A stretch of DNA of 64,000 nucleotides. Origin: Rhizobiaceae bacterium (GTDB lineage: Bacteria; Pseudomonadota; Alphaproteobacteria; Rhizobiales; Rhizobiaceae). The notes under the pieces were generated by a model, which saw only the letters and a program-made list of their open reading frames with translations, was not told where the DNA came from and ran no database searches. The DNA lies in the NCBI GenBank assembly GCA_023953905.1, contig JAMLJA010000001.1, forward strand, positions 186,001-250,000, given 5' to 3'. Positions 38,596 through 45,723 of this stretch are shown here, piece by piece (position 1 is the first letter of the stretch; every line of letters begins with the position of its first letter). The translations under genes and the position numbers were made by a program.

Positions 38596-40086
38596 TCAGA
38601 ACGCCCGCGTCGACCATGCGCGTCTCAATCGCATCAGTGCTGGGACGATCCAGATCGCAAAGAAGACAAAGGCCAGACCTCCCGCGATGGGACGATCGAC
38701 AAAGGCAACAAGATCGCCGCCGGCCTTGATCATCGAATTGGTGAAACTCTCCTCGACGATCTTTCCAAGGACCAGCCCCAGAACCATTGGCGCAATGGGA
38801 AACCCGTTCTCTTCCATGAACCAGCCAACAACCCCCAGCGCGAGAATGATCCATAGATCGAACACGGCATTGTTGACCGCGAAAGCACCAACGATCGAGA
38901 ACATGAGAATGATCGGCAACAGGATGCGCTGATTGATTCGAAGCACATGGCGCGCCGCCTTGATGGCCAGAAGGCCAAGTGGAATCAGAAGCAGATTTGC
39001 CAGGATGAAGACGACGAAAATGGCCGAGACGATGTCACCGCTCTGGGTAAAGACCGTCGGCCCCGGATTCATGCCCTTGATCAGCAGCACGCCGATCACG
39101 ATTGCGGTGATGGAATCACCCGGTATGCCAAAGACCAAGGCGGGAACATACGCGCCCCCAAGGGATGCATTGTTGGAAGCGCTGGCGTCCACGACGCCCT
39201 CGATATGGCCGGTGCCGAACTTTTCGGGCGTCTTGGAAAAGCGCTTCGAGACGGCATATGATATCCAGCCGGCGATATCCGCGCCCGCTCCCGGCAGAAT
39301 ACCGAGGATCGTGCCGATCACGCCGCCTCGCAACGCGTTCCATTTATAGAACATGATCGATGAAACGCCCTGAAGCAGAATGGCGCCCTTGACCTGCTCT
39401 GGGGGAGGCAGATCCTCATGGATCGTCGAGGCCTTGCGGAAAAGCTCAGCGATCGCAAAGAGCCCGATGAGCGCTGCAATCAGAGACACCCCGCCCATGA
39501 GATCGACCGTGCCGAACGTATACCGAGGCATCCCGGTCACGACATCCAGCCCGACGGTCGCCAGGAAGAGCCCCAGAAATAGCGATGTGATCCCTTTGAA
39601 CGGGTTCGAAGCGCTGATCAGCGTGGCTGCTGAAAGCCCTATCAAGGCCAGCCAGAAATACTCATAGCTGGAAAATCGCAGCGCGATCTGGGCGAGTTGG
39701 GGCGCCAGCAGGATCAGCGCCATGGTTCCGAATATGCCGCCAAACGCTGACGCCAGAAGGTTGACGCTGAGCACCCGGGAGAGTTCCCCGCGCCGCCCCA
39801 GCAGATAGGCTTCAGACACATAGGCGGCGGACGCGGGCGTTCCTGGTATCCGTAGCAATGCTCCGGGAATATCGCCCGCAAATATCGACATTGCGGAGCA
39901 GGTCACGATCGCGCCGATGGCGGGCACCGGGTCCATGTAGAAGGTCAGCGGCACGAGCAGCGCCGCCGCCATTGTTGCTGTAAGGCCGGGCATCGACCCG
40001 ACAAACAGTCCAAAGATGGCCGACGCCCCGATCACGAACAGCGTGAAAGGCTGGAAGACGGTCTGGATGGCAGCCACAAAATTCAT
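38596..40086 (-). CDS. Tripartite tricarboxylate transporter, large permease (TctA)
   Basis: A 496-residue inner-membrane protein with about 11-12 helices, the TctA subunit of a TTT transporter driven by ion gradients. The family signature GLFVGSMPGLTATMAAALLV occurs near residue 22, and GDIPGALLRIPGTPASAAYV near 66; the internal repeat FGIPGDSITAIVIGVLLIKG is near 330. ATG 40086 is chosen because it overlaps the TctB stop by 4 bases and matches the family N-terminus; the frame is open to 40191. It is the last gene of the RraA-regulator-TctCBA operon. Confidence 0.93.
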   Translation of the reverse strand: MNFVAAIQTVFQPFTLFVIGASAIFGLFVGSMPGLTATMAAALLVPLTFYMDPVPAIGAIVTCSAMSIFAGDIPGALLRIPGTPASAAYVSEAYLLGRRGELSRVLSVNLLASAFGGIFGTMALILLAPQLAQIALRFSSYEYFWLALIGLSAATLISASNPFKGITSLFLGLFLATVGLDVVTGMPRYTFGTVDLMGGVSLIAALIGLFAIAELFRKASTIHEDLPPPEQVKGAILLQGVSSIMFYKWNALRGGVIGTILGILPGAGADIAGWISYAVSKRFSKTPEKFGTGHIEGVVDASASNNASLGGAYVPALVFGIPGDSITAIVIGVLLIKGMNPGPTVFTQSGDIVSAIFVVFILANLLLIPLGLLAIKAARHVLRINQRILLPIILMFSIVGAFAVNNAVFDLWIILALGVVGWFMEENGFPIAPMVLGLVLGKIVEESFTNSMIKAGGDLVAFVDRPIAGGLAFVFFAIWIVPALMRLRRAWSTRAF

Positions 40087-40559
40087 GGCAACATCGCCTC
40101 TATGACGCCGTAAGGCAGCGGAACCCGCATGAGCATGACAAAGATGACGTGAAGGGATACCGAAAGCACGAGCGCTACCCCCGCACTCCACAGAACGTTC
40201 ACGCGGAATGCCAGCAGCAACCCGAACGTCACGAGAACGGACGTGGCGAGAAATCCGAGCGGTGGGCTCAACAGTCCGTAGGCAATGATTGCCGCAGGAA
40301 CGGCCAGCACCGCAACAACATTACCCGGGCGCCGCATCCAGTCAGGAATCACGGCGATCGGAAGCGCAGCCTTCTTTTTCAAGCTCATCACGACAAGTGC
40401 GAGGCCACAGGCCGTCAGCACAGCTCCGATCAACCCCGGATAGAAGGCTGGACTGACCGGTGAAGCGCCGACGGATGGGAAGGTACGGGCCCGCAGGAGT
40501 ATGGCAAGGCCGAGACCGGCAATCGCCAGTCCCGACGCCAGATCGCTGACCTTGAGCAC
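40083..40559 (-). CDS. Tripartite tricarboxylate transporter, small permease (TctB)
   Basis: A 158-residue membrane protein with about four helices (DLASGLAIAGLGLAILLRAR; FYPGLIGAVLTACGLALVVM; VVAVLAVPAAIIAYGLL; LSVSLHVIFVMLMRVPLP), typical for the poorly conserved TctB subunit. Its gene lies between tctC and tctA with a 3-base gap and a 4-base overlap, so all three are translationally close-coupled. The subunit probably assembles with TctA. Confidence 0.87.
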   Translation of the reverse strand: MLKVSDLASGLAIAGLGLAILLRARTFPSVGASPVSPAFYPGLIGAVLTACGLALVVMSLKKKAALPIAVIPDWMRRPGNVVAVLAVPAAIIAYGLLSPPLGFLATSVLVTFGLLLAFRVNVLWSAGVALVLSVSLHVIFVMLMRVPLPYGVIEAMLP

Positions 40560-40562
40560 GGA

Positions 40563-41537
40563 TCAGTCCCGCTTACGCAGACCGAGCAGGCCCATGATCT
40601 CGCCATTGCGCTCGTGCTGAGTGGCGAGGTACTCGCCAAACTCACCATCCGAGAGGTAGATGACGCCGAAACCACGGTCCTTCATGAAGCTCTGGAACTC
40701 ATCCGAGTGCCACGCCGCGTCGACCGCCTTGATCAGCTTTTCCTTTGCCTCGTCTGGAATACCGACTGGAGCAACGATGCCGCGCCATGTACCGCCGGCC
40801 CATTCGGTACCGATCGCTTCCTTGACGGTTGGCACATCCGGGAACGCACCCAGACGTTCGTCCGCCAGGACCGCGAGGCTCTTGACCTGCCCAGCGTCAA
40901 TCATCGCCTTTGCCTCTGGCAATGACGACGGCACGATCTCGACGCCACCGGCGGCCAGTTCCTGAAAACCCGGCGCTGCGCCTTGGCTGGGAACGACCGT
41001 AACCTTGTTAGGGTCGATGCCCTGGGAGTTGAGCAGACCCGCAAAGGCCAGATGGTAGGCCGCGCCTGCGCCCATGCCCGAGAGCTTGTAGGTACCCGCA
41101 GGTGCCGACGAGATGGCATCAAGTGCCGTGCGCAGATCATTCCACTCGCCATTGGCCGCGACGTTGAATGACGAAGCATCGAGATTGACCAGCGCGATGG
41201 GCGTGACGTCCTTGGCGGTAAATTGCGCGGTGCCTGACCAGTAGTATGTCGACAGTTCCGCGCTCGCCAGACCGATGGTGTAGCCATCCGGCTTTGCGTT
41301 GACCATCTCCGTGTGGCCGATAACGCCGGCACCGCCGGTGCGGTTCACGACGTTGACGGGAGTGCCCAACTCGGCCTCGATGCGCGCCGCGAGCGAGCGC
41401 GCCACCGCATCTGTGCCACCGCCAGCCGCCCATGAGACAAGCATGGTGATCGGGCGTTCCGGATATTCGGCGAGCGCCGCGCCTGGCAGCGCCAGAAGCA
41501 TCGCCGATGTCAAAAGAATGGATTTGGTGAGTTTCAT
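40563..41537 (-). CDS. Tripartite tricarboxylate transporter, periplasmic binding protein (TctC)
   Basis: A 324-residue BugD/TctC-family extracytoplasmic receptor. The signal peptide MKLTKSILLTSAMLLALPGA ends after ALA near residue 23, followed by the family pattern YPERPITMLVSWAAGGGTDA and VNVVNRTGGAGVIGH. TctC proteins bind carboxylates through two water molecules and show no strong ligand signature. GGAGG lies about 6 bases before ATG 41537, so the apparent MEEN extension upstream is the ribosome binding site itself. With the RraA and DapA-like enzymes next door, the ligand may be a hydroxy- or keto-dicarboxylate (inference). Confidence 0.92.
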   Translation of the reverse strand: MKLTKSILLTSAMLLALPGAALAEYPERPITMLVSWAAGGGTDAVARSLAARIEAELGTPVNVVNRTGGAGVIGHTEMVNAKPDGYTIGLASAELSTYYWSGTAQFTAKDVTPIALVNLDASSFNVAANGEWNDLRTALDAISSAPAGTYKLSGMGAGAAYHLAFAGLLNSQGIDPNKVTVVPSQGAAPGFQELAAGGVEIVPSSLPEAKAMIDAGQVKSLAVLADERLGAFPDVPTVKEAIGTEWAGGTWRGIVAPVGIPDEAKEKLIKAVDAAWHSDEFQSFMKDRGFGVIYLSDGEFGEYLATQHERNGEIMGLLGLRKRD

Positions 41538-41568
41538 GTTTTCCTCCACATGTTGATAGTTTTTTGGC

Positions 41569-42303
41569 TCAGAGTTTGAGCCGCTCCGTCAGATCGGATT
41601 CCGTATAGCCGAGCACGTCCAGCATGGCGGCGTGGGCCGCTTCAGGATCTTCAGCATCGATCGCCAGCGATACCCTTTCGTGAGCCGGCAGATTGCCGGG
41701 AAAGATGTCGGGGTTCTGGATGCTGATCTGGAAGAAGGCCGACAGGATTGCTGTCAGCGCCGGCGAAAATGCGAGTAGAATGGCGTTGTGAGATGCCTCC
41801 AGAATGGCGGTGTGATACTGGATATCGGCTCGGACTGAGGCTGCCGGATCCCCCACCGAGTCGGCCATTGCGCGATAGGCAGCGCGGATGTTCGACCTGT
41901 TGGAGACGGTTGCATTGGTTGCCGCAAGCCGTGCTGCTTGTGGCTCGATGATTCTGCGTGCCACGAGAATGTCGCGGACCAGTCCGGGCTCGACAAGCCC
42001 CGGTCTCAGCATCCAATGCAAGACGTCATGGTCGAACAGATTCCACTGGCTGCGGGGAAGGATCACTGTTCCCAGACGTGGCCGCGCAGAAACCATGCCC
42101 TTGCTCGCCAGCACCTTGATCGCTTCACGCAGAACGCTCCTGCCGACATCAAGCGTTTGGGCGAGATCGGCCTCGACCGGGAGCGGCAATCCGGGCGCGA
42201 AATCGCCCGCGACAATGCGCTCCCCAAGGGTTGCGACAGCCGTCGCTATCTTGCCCTTGCCCATGTTGCGGGCGGCTGCGGGATTGTCCGGCGTACCGAT
42301 CAT
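41569..42303 (-). CDS. GntR-family regulator, FadR subfamily
   Basis: A 244-residue repressor-type regulator: N-terminal winged helix (VEADLAQTLDVGRSVLREA, RPRLGTVILPRSQWNLFDHD) and C-terminal all-helical FCD ligand domain (residues about 90-235) with metal or carboxylate-binding His and Asp residues in DIQYHTAILEASHNAIL. FadR-subfamily members usually respond to carboxylic acids. Its ATG overlaps the RraA-like stop by one base (TGATG), and it precedes tctC. A perfect palindrome at 43027-43041 is its best candidate operator. Confidence 0.92.
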   Translation of the reverse strand: MIGTPDNPAAARNMGKGKIATAVATLGERIVAGDFAPGLPLPVEADLAQTLDVGRSVLREAIKVLASKGMVSARPRLGTVILPRSQWNLFDHDVLHWMLRPGLVEPGLVRDILVARRIIEPQAARLAATNATVSNRSNIRAAYRAMADSVGDPAASVRADIQYHTAILEASHNAILLAFSPALTAILSAFFQISIQNPDIFPGNLPAHERVSLAIDAEDPEAAHAAMLDVLGYTESDLTERLKL

Positions 42304-42950
42304 CAGAACTTGCCGTATTTCAGATAGGCCTGCTGCGGATCCTCTCCCGCGAGAATGGCTGCACGTACCTTGTTCTCTGTGCTGATCGCCGTTTCGGCGC
42401 GCTCGAGTACGCTTTCCACCTTGTCGGCGGGGATGACGACGACACCATCCTGATCGCCAAGAATGTAGTCTCCGGCGCGGATGACCACATTGCCGATCGT
42501 GATCGTCTCGTTGAAGGCTTCCGGTACCCAGTTGGCCACAATGTCGATCGGTGTCGTGAAGCTGCAGAACACCGGAAAGCCGATATCGCGAATGAAGCTC
42601 ACATCACGCGCGCCTCCGTCGACGAGATAGCCAAGCACACCACGAAACTTCAGCGTCTCTGCCGACAGTTCACCCATCAGCGCGCGAACCGAATCCTGCG
42701 GCTGGCAAACCACCACGTGACCAGCTGCTGCCTTCGACAGAAATCCGGTCCACTCAAGCAATGTCGTGTGGGCGTCGACCGTCTTGTCCGGTCTGCCGCG
42801 CATCGTGAAAACCGGCCCGGCAATCTTCAGGGCAGGGTCGAGTGGGCGGATTTCAGGCGGCAGAACCGCCGGCGCGAGCCCCATGTCCCGCATGATGTCG
42901 TAAATGATGCCCGAGTAGCAGTTCGCGAGACGTTCCGTGAGAGTGGGCAT
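42303..42950 (-). CDS. RraA-like aldolase/decarboxylase family protein
   Basis: A 215-residue member of the RraA/HMG-CHA aldolase family: class II (metal-dependent) pyruvate aldolases or oxaloacetate decarboxylases, some only RNase E regulators. Visible: the phosphate-binding-like region AAAGHVVVCQPQDSVRALMG and the active-site DGGARDVSFIRDIGFPVF, with the Arg-Asp pair needed for catalysis and metal binding. ATG 42950 has GAGGAT 5 bases upstream; ATG 42962 is in frame but overlaps that site. As first gene of the operon with TctCBA and a FadR-type regulator, it is more likely catabolic than an RNase E inhibitor. Confidence 0.87.
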   Translation of the reverse strand: MPTLTERLANCYSGIIYDIMRDMGLAPAVLPPEIRPLDPALKIAGPVFTMRGRPDKTVDAHTTLLEWTGFLSKAAAGHVVVCQPQDSVRALMGELSAETLKFRGVLGYLVDGGARDVSFIRDIGFPVFCSFTTPIDIVANWVPEAFNETITIGNVVIRAGDYILGDQDGVVVIPADKVESVLERAETAISTENKVRAAILAGEDPQQAYLKYGKF

Positions 42951-43008
42951 CAGTATCCTCAAATTCCTGGCAGGTCCGCCTTGGCGGTTGCGCGGACTGT
43001 GTCACGAG

Positions 43009-43041
43009 TATAATGCTTTGGCAAGCATTCATCTGATGAAT
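43009..43041 (+). promoter_or_regulatory. Promoter -10 and 15-bp palindromic operator in the divergent tct/dapA-like region
   Basis: TATAAT at 43009-43014 is a consensus -10 box for the plus-strand gene; a weak -35 TTGCGC lies 15 bases upstream. Starting 12 bases later, ATTCATC-T-GATGAAT (43027-43041) is a perfect 7+1+7 palindrome, just downstream of the predicted transcript start. Its place suits repression by the FadR-type regulator encoded at 41569-42303. Confidence 0.6.
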
Positions 43042-43057
43042 CAAAATGGAAAAGAAT

Positions 43058-43996
43058 ATGGTGGAAAAACAGTCGGATCGGGATCTGCCACGCGGAATTT
43101 ATCCAATGCTCTACGCATTCTGGACGGAAGCTGGGCGGCTCGACGAAGAGGCGATGGCCCTACAGGTCGAGCACGCAGTCGATGCTGGCGCTGACGGCGT
43201 CGCGGTGCTTGGTCTGGTAACGGAATCGCATCGGCTTGACGTGGCAGAGCGACTTGCGCTGGTTCGCACTGTCTCGCGGCTCCTCGACAAACGCCTTCCC
43301 TACTCTGTCACTGTGACAGGCGAAACGCCTGACGTGCAGCGTGATTTCGCAACCGCAGCGATCGCGGAGGGCGCCGACTGGCTGATCCTGCAACCGCCAT
43401 TGCAGACGGTCATGGATGAGCCGCAGTTGATCGACTTCTTCGCAGCGATCGCCGAAGGCTGCGACTGCCTGTTGGGGGTCCAGAACAACCCGGAGCATTT
43501 GCGCAATGCGTTCACCTCCGACGGGCTTTTGCGGCTCCATAAATCCGTGCCGCAGATCACGATCGCCAAGGCGGAAGGTCCTGTTGTCAATATCGAACCA
43601 TTGATCGCGGCCACGGCGGGCAGTCTGTCGAGCTTTGGCGGACATGGCGGCATCGAGCACATCCGCCTGCTTCGCGCTGGGGCGGACGGTCTTATTCCCG
43701 CGCCGGACTGTCTGCCTTTGCAGGTACGCATCCAGAGTTTGTGGCGGGATGGCAGTGAGGATGCGCAGAATGAAGCGATCGCGATCGAAGAAGAACTGCT
43801 TCCCCTGATCGTCTTCATGAACCGATCGATCGACGTCCTGCTTTGCTATGGCAGGCAGTTCATGGCCCGACGCCTCGGTCTGAAAGCAACAACTGACCGC
43901 CTTGGGAAATTGCAGCCCACGGCATTCGGCATGAAAGAGACAGATCGTCTGTTTGAAAAGTTGCGTCGCACAGAAGATCGGTTTCTGACGAACTAG
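43058..43996 (+). CDS. Dihydrodipicolinate synthase/N-acetylneuraminate lyase family aldolase
   Basis: A 312-residue class I aldolase of the DapA superfamily. The beta-barrel motifs are recognisable: GIYPMLYAFWTEAGRLDEEA, GADGVAVLGLVTESHRL in place of GTTGE, YSVTVTGET, the Schiff-base lysine in PQITIAKAEGPVV near residue 170 and SSFGGHGGIEHIRLLRAGAD. It departs from true DapA (GTTGE is GLVTES), so a catabolic keto-acid aldolase is more likely than lysine synthesis. The start could be ATG 43046 or 43058; GAAAAG lies 3-8 bases before the second. It is divergent from the RraA-regulator-Tct operon and probably co-regulated with it. Confidence 0.85.
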   Translation: MVEKQSDRDLPRGIYPMLYAFWTEAGRLDEEAMALQVEHAVDAGADGVAVLGLVTESHRLDVAERLALVRTVSRLLDKRLPYSVTVTGETPDVQRDFATAAIAEGADWLILQPPLQTVMDEPQLIDFFAAIAEGCDCLLGVQNNPEHLRNAFTSDGLLRLHKSVPQITIAKAEGPVVNIEPLIAATAGSLSSFGGHGGIEHIRLLRAGADGLIPAPDCLPLQVRIQSLWRDGSEDAQNEAIAIEEELLPLIVFMNRSIDVLLCYGRQFMARRLGLKATTDRLGKLQPTAFGMKETDRLFEKLRRTEDRFLTN

Positions 43997-44138: not shown

Positions 44139-44238
44139 CCGGCCGCTGATCCGCCGGACAACCGAACATCCCCCGACTTGCCCAACGAACCCTGCCAGCG
44201 TGTGCGTGGGCCAGTCTCTGTTGAATTTTCGGAAACCG

Positions 44239-45723
44239 ATGCCCTCATTTTCAGCCTACCGCGACCAGTGGTTCAGCAATGTCCGTCCTGATCTGCTTTC
44301 AGGTCTTGTCGTCGCCCTTGCCCTCATTCCCGAAGCGATTGCCTTCTCCATCATCGCAGGTGTCGACCCGAAGGTCGGGCTCTACGCTTCTTTCTCCATC
44401 GCCGTGCTGATCGCGTTTGTCGGCGGTCGGCCCGGAATGATCTCGGCCGCAACGGCCGCGACGGCGGTACTGATGGTGACGCTCGTTCGCGATCATGGAC
44501 TGCAATACCTGCTTGCCGCCACCGTGCTTGCCGGCCTTTTGCAGATAGGCGCCGGCTTGCTCACGCTCGGATACGTCATGCGCTTTGTCTCGCGCTCGGT
44601 CATGACGGGGTTCGTCAACGCACTCGCGATTTTGATTTTCATGGCGCAGCTGCCCGAATTGATCGGCGTGACATGGCTCACCTATGTGATGCTGGCGGCA
44701 GGCCTCGCGATCATCTACCTCTTCCCCTATGTGACGAAGGCAGTCCCCTCGCCGCTCGTCTGCATCGCGGTTCTCACAGCCGTCGCGATCACGTTCGGCC
44801 TTGATGTCCGAACGGTCGGCGACATGGGCGAATTGCCGTCGACCTTGCCGGTGTTTCTCATTCCCGACATTCCCTTTACCTTCGAAACGCTGTTCATCAT
44901 CCTGCCCTATTCGGCTGCGGTTGCTGTGGTGGGGCTACTGGAATCGCTGATGACGGCGCAGCTTGTCGATGATCTCACCGACACGCCGTCGGATCGCAAT
45001 CAGGAGTGCATCGGACAGGGCGTGGCCAACACGGCCACCGCCTTCATCGGCGGCATGGCAGGCTGCGCGATGATCGGCCAGTCCATGATCAATGTGAAAT
45101 CGGGGGGCCGGGGGCGCCTGTCCACCTTTACGGCAGGCGTGGTGCTGCTCTTCCTGGTGCTGGTACTGGACGATCTCGTTCGCCAGATCCCCATGCCGGC
45201 TCTGGTTGCCGTCATGGTGATGGTATCGATCGGGACGTTCTCATGGTCCTCGATCAAAAACCTCAGGGATCATCCACGCTCATCGTCCATCGTGATGCTT
45301 GCCACGGTTGCGGGTGTCCTCTTCACCCACAATCTCGCGATTGGCGTGCTGATCGGCGTGTTGCTCTCCGGTATCTTTTTCGCCTGGAAGATCGCGCAAC
45401 TGTTCGAGGTTTCTTCAACCCTCAGTCAAGACGGACGCCATCGCACCTATGTCGTCGAGGGCCAGTTATTCTTTGCATCGGTGGAAGATTTCATGTCCGC
45501 TTTCGACTTCAAGGAGACCCTCGAGAAAGTCACCATCGACGTCTCTCGTGCGCATATATGGGATATATCGAGCGTTTCAGCACTCGATATGGCGGTCCTC
45601 AAATTTCGCCGAGACGGCGCGGACGTTGAGATTGTCGGCATGAATCAGGCGAGTGAGACCATCGTCGACAAGCTCGCAGTCCATGACAAGCCGGGCGCCC
45701 TCGACAAGCTGATGGCGCATTGA
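44239..45723 (+). CDS. SulP-family inorganic anion transporter with STAS domain
   Basis: A 494-residue SLC26/SulP transporter: about 12-14 membrane helices to residue 395 and a C-terminal cytoplasmic STAS domain (residues 405-490: [35 protein letters not shown]). The signature is [20 protein letters not shown] near residue 16, and [17 protein letters not shown] is present. Substrates of the family are sulfate, bicarbonate, molybdate or dicarboxylates; the specificity cannot be read. ATG 44239 (CGGAAA upstream) is preferred; GTG 44200 is in frame. The UspA-like gene follows after 64 bases, an association common in proteobacteria. Confidence 0.92.

Follow-up and report, generated by a model that had tools for sequence, protein, structure and literature searches.

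A divergent RraA-FadR-TctCBA/DapA-like gene unit in a Rhizobiaceae genome: a possible non-phosphorylative sugar-acid catabolic module

What do an RraA-fold enzyme, a FadR-type regulator, a tripartite carboxylate importer and a divergently encoded DapA-superfamily enzyme accomplish together? This question is raised by positions 38596 to 43996 of a 64,000-nucleotide stretch of a Rhizobiaceae genome (assembly GCA_023953905.1, contig JAMLJA010000001.1), here called the window, to which all coordinates refer unless a locus is named. A sequence-only reading of this DNA had proposed that the two enzymes split an imported hydroxy-keto acid or sugar-acid-derived compound into pyruvate. We consider it, by a small measure, probable that the six genes together constitute a module for the non-phosphorylative catabolism of a sugar acid, an aldonate or an aldarate, with the first dehydratase encoded elsewhere. 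More tentatively, and at somewhat less than an even chance, the RraA-fold enzyme would be paired in this unit with a new subfamily of KdaD-like dehydratases, whose pocket has been remade for another substrate. The computations described below show the gene order and how far it is conserved, the residues and folds, and the palindrome. Papers cited by PubMed Central number are cited for the parts of their text that were consulted.

Gene families were assigned with Pfam, each score being read against the cut-off of its own family, and all six genes stand where the sequence-only reading had placed them, every one above its cut-off. The left arm lies on the minus strand and begins with the RraA-fold enzyme (42303..42950; RraA-like, 103.8 bits against 24.5), followed by a GntR-family regulator with an FCD domain (41569..42303; GntR 56.5 against 27, FCD 79.1 against 24.3), the periplasmic receptor TctC (40563..41549; 132.9 against 27), the small membrane subunit TctB (40083..40559; 60.1 against 29.1) and the large membrane subunit TctA (38596..40086; 439.6 against 28.9). 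Its helix-turn-helix and FCD domains place the regulator in the FadR subfamily, and the adjacent TctA, TctB and TctC constitute a tripartite tricarboxylate transporter (TTT). The stop codon of RraA and the start codon of the regulator overlap in the sequence TGATG, three bases separate TctC from TctB, and TctA probably starts with the ATG at 40086 (the open reading frame is listed to 40191), where it overlaps the stop codon of TctB in the sequence ATGA. Because of these overlaps and the short gap, the left arm is regarded as a compact operon. RraA probably starts with the ATG at 42950 (open reading frame listed to 42962), the same start as in its relatives. The DapA-superfamily gene diverges from this operon (43046..43996, plus strand; DHDPS 55.2 against 22.1) and may start at 43046 or 43058.

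Comparison of gene neighbourhoods revealed that this order is not unique to the strain. In two plasmids of Microvirga ossetica and in Microvirga arvi, the five genes of the left arm are likewise oriented away from a divergent DapA-like gene, and variants occur in a Rhodobacteraceae metagenome-assembled genome and in Chelatococcus. Both M. ossetica plasmids belong to one strain (NZ_CP016619.1 and NZ_CP016617.1; loci L026 and L225). In the Rhodobacteraceae genome (L034), RraA, FadR, TctC, TctB and TctA follow each other at 77, 66, 74, 63 and 82% identity, respectively, and a second RraA-family gene and then the DapA-like gene lie downstream of TctA in the same direction. Chelatococcus caeni (L035) has the order RraA-FadR-TctC-DapA-like, and its 20-kb stretch holds TctC without TctA or TctB (L035:4665-12367); genes recognised by eye as resembling tripartite ATP-independent periplasmic (TRAP) transporter genes lie upstream of the unit there. 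In Geminicoccus the order is RraA-FadR-IlvD. No close DapA-like orthologue was found in the three congeners of the window organism that were searched, and the best match, at 37% identity in one congener, adjoins a TRAP-receptor-like gene (named by eye). The distribution of the unit is therefore patchy. Of 384 alphaproteobacterial genomes, 16 encode both RraA and the DapA-like protein, against 1.9 expected, a co-occurrence for which genome size and lifestyle are confounding factors. The unit is accompanied at L026:3873-4370, L034:8481-9017 and L036:14464-14961 by a small protein that carries the annotation 2,4'-dihydroxyacetophenone dioxygenase family; the copies in the latter two loci are 71-98% identical to that of M. 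ossetica, and the protein has no NCBIfam match.

The divergent region contains a perfect 15-bp palindrome, ATTCATC-T-GATGAAT (43027..43041), a candidate operator of both arms, and a second, imperfect one, AATGCTTT-GG-CAAGCATT (43012..43029; 7 of 8 pairs). The perfect palindrome has one exact copy in the 4,749,409-base genome and no copy with one mismatch; a search of the whole genome for a regulon returned elsewhere only places with two mismatches. Palindromes with a related CATC/GATG core were found at the matching region of L026, L034, L035, L036 and L225. Between the RraA start and the upstream gene these read CAATTCATC-A-GATGAATTG in the Rhodobacteraceae genome, TATGATGTT-A-AACATCATA in M. 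arvi, CATC-T-GATG and TGATGTT-T-AACATCA in M. ossetica and ATCAGATGTTTAACATCAGAT in Chelatococcus; the corresponding region of Geminicoccus has no comparable palindrome. A single-copy palindrome with related palindromes in relatives points to a shared control region beyond chance, as the sequence-only reading had supposed, and together with the conserved gene order it indicates that the six genes form one unit. Judged from these sequences, local control common to both arms is well supported, and 43027-43041 is probably its operator. Scans for promoters (3 promoter-like sites, 1.8 expected) and terminators (4 terminator-like sites, 4.9 expected) were at chance level in either case, and we claim none of these sites; one promoter-like match of that scan (43018-43047) overlaps the palindrome.

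What, then, does the DapA-like enzyme do? The sequence-only reading had called it an aldolase with a modified GTTGE motif, and the motif is indeed replaced by GLVTE at residues 56-60. By sequence, its nearest relatives of solved structure are the L-2-keto-3-deoxyarabonate dehydratases (KdaD) 7c0c and 3fkk (E about 1e-15), and its structural model (predicted local distance difference test score, pLDDT, 85.7) has 7c0c as best fold match (template modelling scores 0.84/0.88). In KdaD, the tyrosine of the aldolases is changed to Gln143, and Glu173, near the Schiff-base Lys171, acts as base; according to a review, Glu173 is not conserved in other members (PMC9795676). The DapA-like protein has the DHDPS/NAL fold with a Schiff-base lysine (Lys175), a glutamine for the tyrosine (Gln146) and a glutamate two residues past the lysine (Glu177), all three being present in 19 of 19 aligned DapA-like proteins (residues were counted in all alignments after duplicate rows and rows containing stops had been taken out). 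Such a signature argues for dehydration and not for aldol cleavage. On residues and model, the protein is probably a dehydratase rather than a pyruvate-releasing aldolase, and a keto-semialdehyde leading to 2-oxoglutarate is its expected product. Read as a conventional class I aldolase, it would act with RraA on a hydroxy-keto acid to yield pyruvate and an aldehyde. The DHDPS fold and the Schiff-base lysine would suit that role, and aldolases of the YagE type turn up among its weaker matches by sequence, but the loss of the proton-shuttling tyrosine, the added Glu177 in every row and a dehydratase as best match in sequence and fold make it quite improbable. Thus the claim that both enzymes give pyruvate stands, as an expectation, for RraA and is not supported for the DapA-like protein. 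Two named identities were also rejected: KdgD (30.6 bits against a cut-off of 373.95), since Gln146 takes the place of its catalytic tyrosine, Y141 in AbKdgD (PMC13398020), and true DapA, 4-hydroxy-tetrahydrodipicolinate synthase (44.2 bits against 206.15).

The DapA-like protein nevertheless departs from KdaD, with which it shares ~23% identity. The pocket residues of CnKdaD, Phe53, Glu200, Glu201 and Met217 (PMC13398020), correspond to Val58, His200, Gly201 and Ile217, so that the two glutamates which serve KdaD as C5 base are missing; Glu204 is close by in 14 of the 19 rows. Loss of these glutamates and of the pocket phenylalanine makes a substrate other than that of KdaD probable. From the alignment, the enzyme probably exerts a KdaD-like action on another 2-keto-3-deoxy acid and should not be filed as KdaD. 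DapA-like relatives at 35-52% identity adjoin genes annotated as mandelate racemase/enolase-type dehydratases, DgoD, gluconolactonase or sugar ATP-binding cassette (ABC) importers.

The model of the RraA enzyme (pLDDT 95.4) matches RraA-fold proteins, with the HMG/CHA aldolase 3noj at rank 4. Arg119, Asp120 and Glu196 (numbered from 42962) align with Arg123, Asp124 and Glu199 of this aldolase, whose catalytic roles have been described (PMC5065237), and RraA hence carries the Arg/Asp/Glu catalytic and metal set of LigK/PcmE. In an alignment whose rows come mostly from loci fetched for carrying RraA, the arginine and the aspartate are each present in 108 of 108 rows and the glutamate in 105. Could the operon then serve aromatic-ring catabolism, with RraA as HMG/CHA aldolase and TctCBA as importer of an aromatic or a tricarboxylic acid? 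The retained catalytic residues speak for it, as does the binding of terephthalate or citrate by some TctC proteins (PMC13390454 in part). The RraA protein, however, remains far under the cut-offs of true LigK/PcmE (76.0 against 304.5) and of PRK09262 (84.4 against 179), no ring-cleavage gene was recognised in the units examined, and sugar-acid dehydratases are abundant near RraA instead, so that we judge such a role very improbable. That the protein is an RNase E regulator merely located in the operon has its family name in favour; it scores 35.9 against a cut-off of 136, its catalytic residues are retained and its position is kept in unrelated genera, which leaves this explanation a next to negligible chance. 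On residues and by analogy, the simplest role of RraA would be that of a metal-dependent aldolase or decarboxylase on a 2-keto-3-deoxy acid. The sole characterised sugar-acid precedent for the RraA fold found in our searches of open-licence PubMed Central literature is FlDet, an RraA-like 2-keto-3-deoxyglucarate dehydratase/decarboxylase of Flavobacterium (PMC8563752). We looked for FlDet in five Bacteroidota genomes and identified no protein as such; the RraA relatives in these genomes adjoin genes that by eye resemble short-chain dehydrogenase/reductase (SDR), MR/MLE or GarD genes.

The neighbourhoods of RraA are informative about the kind of substrate. Two RraA peptide patterns were used to find 80 named loci (L034-L113), which describe that subfamily only. 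A GarD/UxaA-family gene is present in 33, an MR/MLE gene in 23 and an IlvD gene in 7 of these loci, and any of the three in 52. The 1.26 Mb of RraA loci contain 65 dehydratase hits, compared to ~4.8 expected from the dehydratase density in the window's own genome alone. A neighbour of RraA that by eye resembles a CoA-transferase gene was left out of these counts. The GarD/UxaA-family gene near RraA is frequently divided into a SAF part and a catalytic part. GarD occurs in 19 of the 80 loci with alpha-L-fucosidase, rhamnose-mutarotase-family or fuconolactonase-like genes, which suggests L-fucose-type pathways around RraA in several phyla. The RraA gene of Ruegeria has in its vicinity a KdaD orthologue (362 bits) and a gene resembling 2,4-didehydro-3-deoxy-L-rhamnonate hydrolase (437 bits against a cut-off of 500). 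The window genome itself encodes seven RraA-family genes, and two others of these lie with IlvD genes, which supports the proposed module. One, on contig C2 (L218:13793-16260), overlaps the end of an IlvD/Edd-family gene by a few bases; the other, on contig C40 (L157:6703-16429), is part of an ABC-transporter cluster with an L-arabinonate-dehydratase-type IlvD (846.8 bits against a cut-off of 882; 66% identity to the Microvirga IlvD). The former cluster includes TctABC and an MR/MLE gene as well and is thereby a second set of RraA, dehydratase and TTT in this genome, while GntR-regulator-like and SDR-like genes occur in the latter; some neighbour genes, including part of the cluster on C2, were named by eye without a family search. 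In a 27-row RraA tree with open forks and long branches, which we use for this point only, the window RraA is nearest to that of the Rhodobacteraceae genome.

The importer points in the same direction. Among solved structures, TctC has its best match in 25hk (158.5 bits), a receptor for alginate oligosaccharides from Vibrio sp. C42; 4x9t and the citrate receptor BugD rank below it. Eleven ligand residues are listed for the alginate-oligosaccharide receptor, three of which are said to set specificity (PMC13390454). TctC is identical in five of the eleven, including two of the three specificity residues (Gly24 and Thr225), and differs in six; Gly183 of the 25hk receptor is replaced by a proline, and the ligand site of TctC is hence not that of an alginate-oligosaccharide TTT of this type. 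Closeness to 25hk with partial identity of the ligand residues fits a sugar-acid ligand and not alginate itself. This finding, the dehydratases near the RraA subfamily and the L-arabinonate-dehydratase-family IlvD of M. ossetica and Geminicoccus bear out the sugar-acid type of substrate that the sequence-only reading had considered.

Whether the sugar acid might be a six-carbon diacid deserves separate consideration. In this variant, RraA, acting like FlDet, and the DapA-like protein, acting through its Schiff base, would both be dehydratase/decarboxylases that convert 2-keto-3-deoxyglucarate-type acids to alpha-ketoglutaric semialdehyde (KGSA). FlDet offers the precedent for RraA (PMC8563752), likened to it by description and not by direct comparison. 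The DapA-like pocket lacks Phe53, Glu200 and Glu201 of KdaD, changes of the kind by which an enlarged, less acidic pocket let in a C6 diacid (PMC13398020). TTT transporters for D-glucarate are on record (PMC13390454), and the Chelatococcus locus contains a GarD-family gene. Yet KdgD retains the tyrosine where the DapA-like protein has glutamine (PMC13398020), the IlvD proteins of Microvirga and Geminicoccus are of the pentonate type, and the GarD-family genes reach at most 371 against the galactarate-dehydratase cut-off of 731. We therefore regard the aldarate variant as rather unlikely.

For the sugar-acid module in its general form, we infer the reactions, the substrate class, the binding of the regulator and the sense of regulation as follows. 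TctCBA would bring in a sugar acid, which an unlinked dehydratase of the IlvD/Edd, GarD or MR/MLE family would turn into a 2-keto-3-deoxy acid. The DapA-like enzyme would hold this acid as a Schiff base on Lys175, and Gln146 and Glu177 would help to dehydrate it to a keto-semialdehyde on the way to 2-oxoglutarate. RraA, as a metal-dependent class II enzyme, would cleave or decarboxylate that keto acid or a related one and supply pyruvate. The FadR-type regulator would sit on the palindrome 43027-43041 and control both arms until released by an intermediate. The conservation of the unit, the single-copy palindrome with its counterparts in relatives, the KdaD-type residues and best match of the DapA-like protein, the residues retained in RraA, the dehydratases near RraA and the closeness of TctC to 25hk speak for this proposal. 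Several observations weigh against it. There is no sugar-acid dehydratase inside the window unit, and because the candidate operator recurs nowhere else in the genome, either exactly or with one mismatch, no dehydratase is tied to the regulator; GarD, IlvD and MR/MLE genes were located in the window genome, none of them tied to the unit. The dehydratases near RraA are mostly under equivalog cut-offs, and the substrate cannot be named from them. A dehydratase hit is absent from 28 of the 80 RraA loci, in some owing to a short locus. RraA and DapA-like genes are not adjacent in the 16 genomes that have both, so their adjacency is a feature of few lineages. Finally, His200 and Gly201 of the DapA-like protein replace the C5-base glutamates of KdaD.

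Base composition gives no sign of recent acquisition, a possibility we rejected since the unit has ~56-61% G+C like its surroundings. Downstream of the DapA-like gene, a SulP-family transporter with a STAS domain is encoded (44200-45723); a search of the other units did not recover it, and it is probably not part of this one.

How does the unit relate to known systems? With KdaD (EC 4.2.1.43) of the Weimberg-type (Route II) pentonate pathway, the DapA-like protein has the Schiff-base lysine, the glutamine for tyrosine and the catalytic glutamate in common, and the Microvirga unit includes an IlvD of the L-arabinonate-dehydratase family. In contrast to that pathway, the unit combines RraA and a TTT importer instead of the usual set of sugar dehydrogenase, lactonase and ABC transporter, and the window unit has no linked KGSA dehydrogenase. 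FlDet, whose gene adjoins an alginate lyase gene, shows the RraA fold in uronic-acid catabolism (PMC8563752). The HMG/CHA aldolase (LigK/PcmE, 3NOJ) shares fold and residues with RraA, which differs from it by a sugar-acid instead of an aromatic neighbourhood. The alginate-oligosaccharide TTT of Vibrio sp. C42 (25HK; PMC13390454) has the closest solved receptor, whereas alginate lyase, KdgF, KdgK and Eda are absent from the window unit. The non-phosphorylative clusters of Herbaspirillum huttiense (PMC6336799) contain a COG2721 (GarD/UxaA) dehydratase, the family seen in 33 of the RraA loci, while the term RraA has zero occurrences in that paper. In the open-licence PubMed Central papers searched, we found no description of this gene set, in agreement with the earlier statement that no described pathway has exactly these genes. 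The unit is hence a new arrangement of known parts within non-phosphorylative sugar-acid catabolism.

The analysis corrects an easy misreading, in which a DapA-like protein is equated with an aldolase, and it gives the TTT importer a testable substrate class. It also connects the poorly assigned RraA-like family with sugar-acid breakdown in several phyla, and this wider pattern around RraA is a more interesting lead than the unit itself. If the role proposed here for RraA is true, many genes annotated as "RraA family protein" would encode catabolic enzymes rather than regulators.

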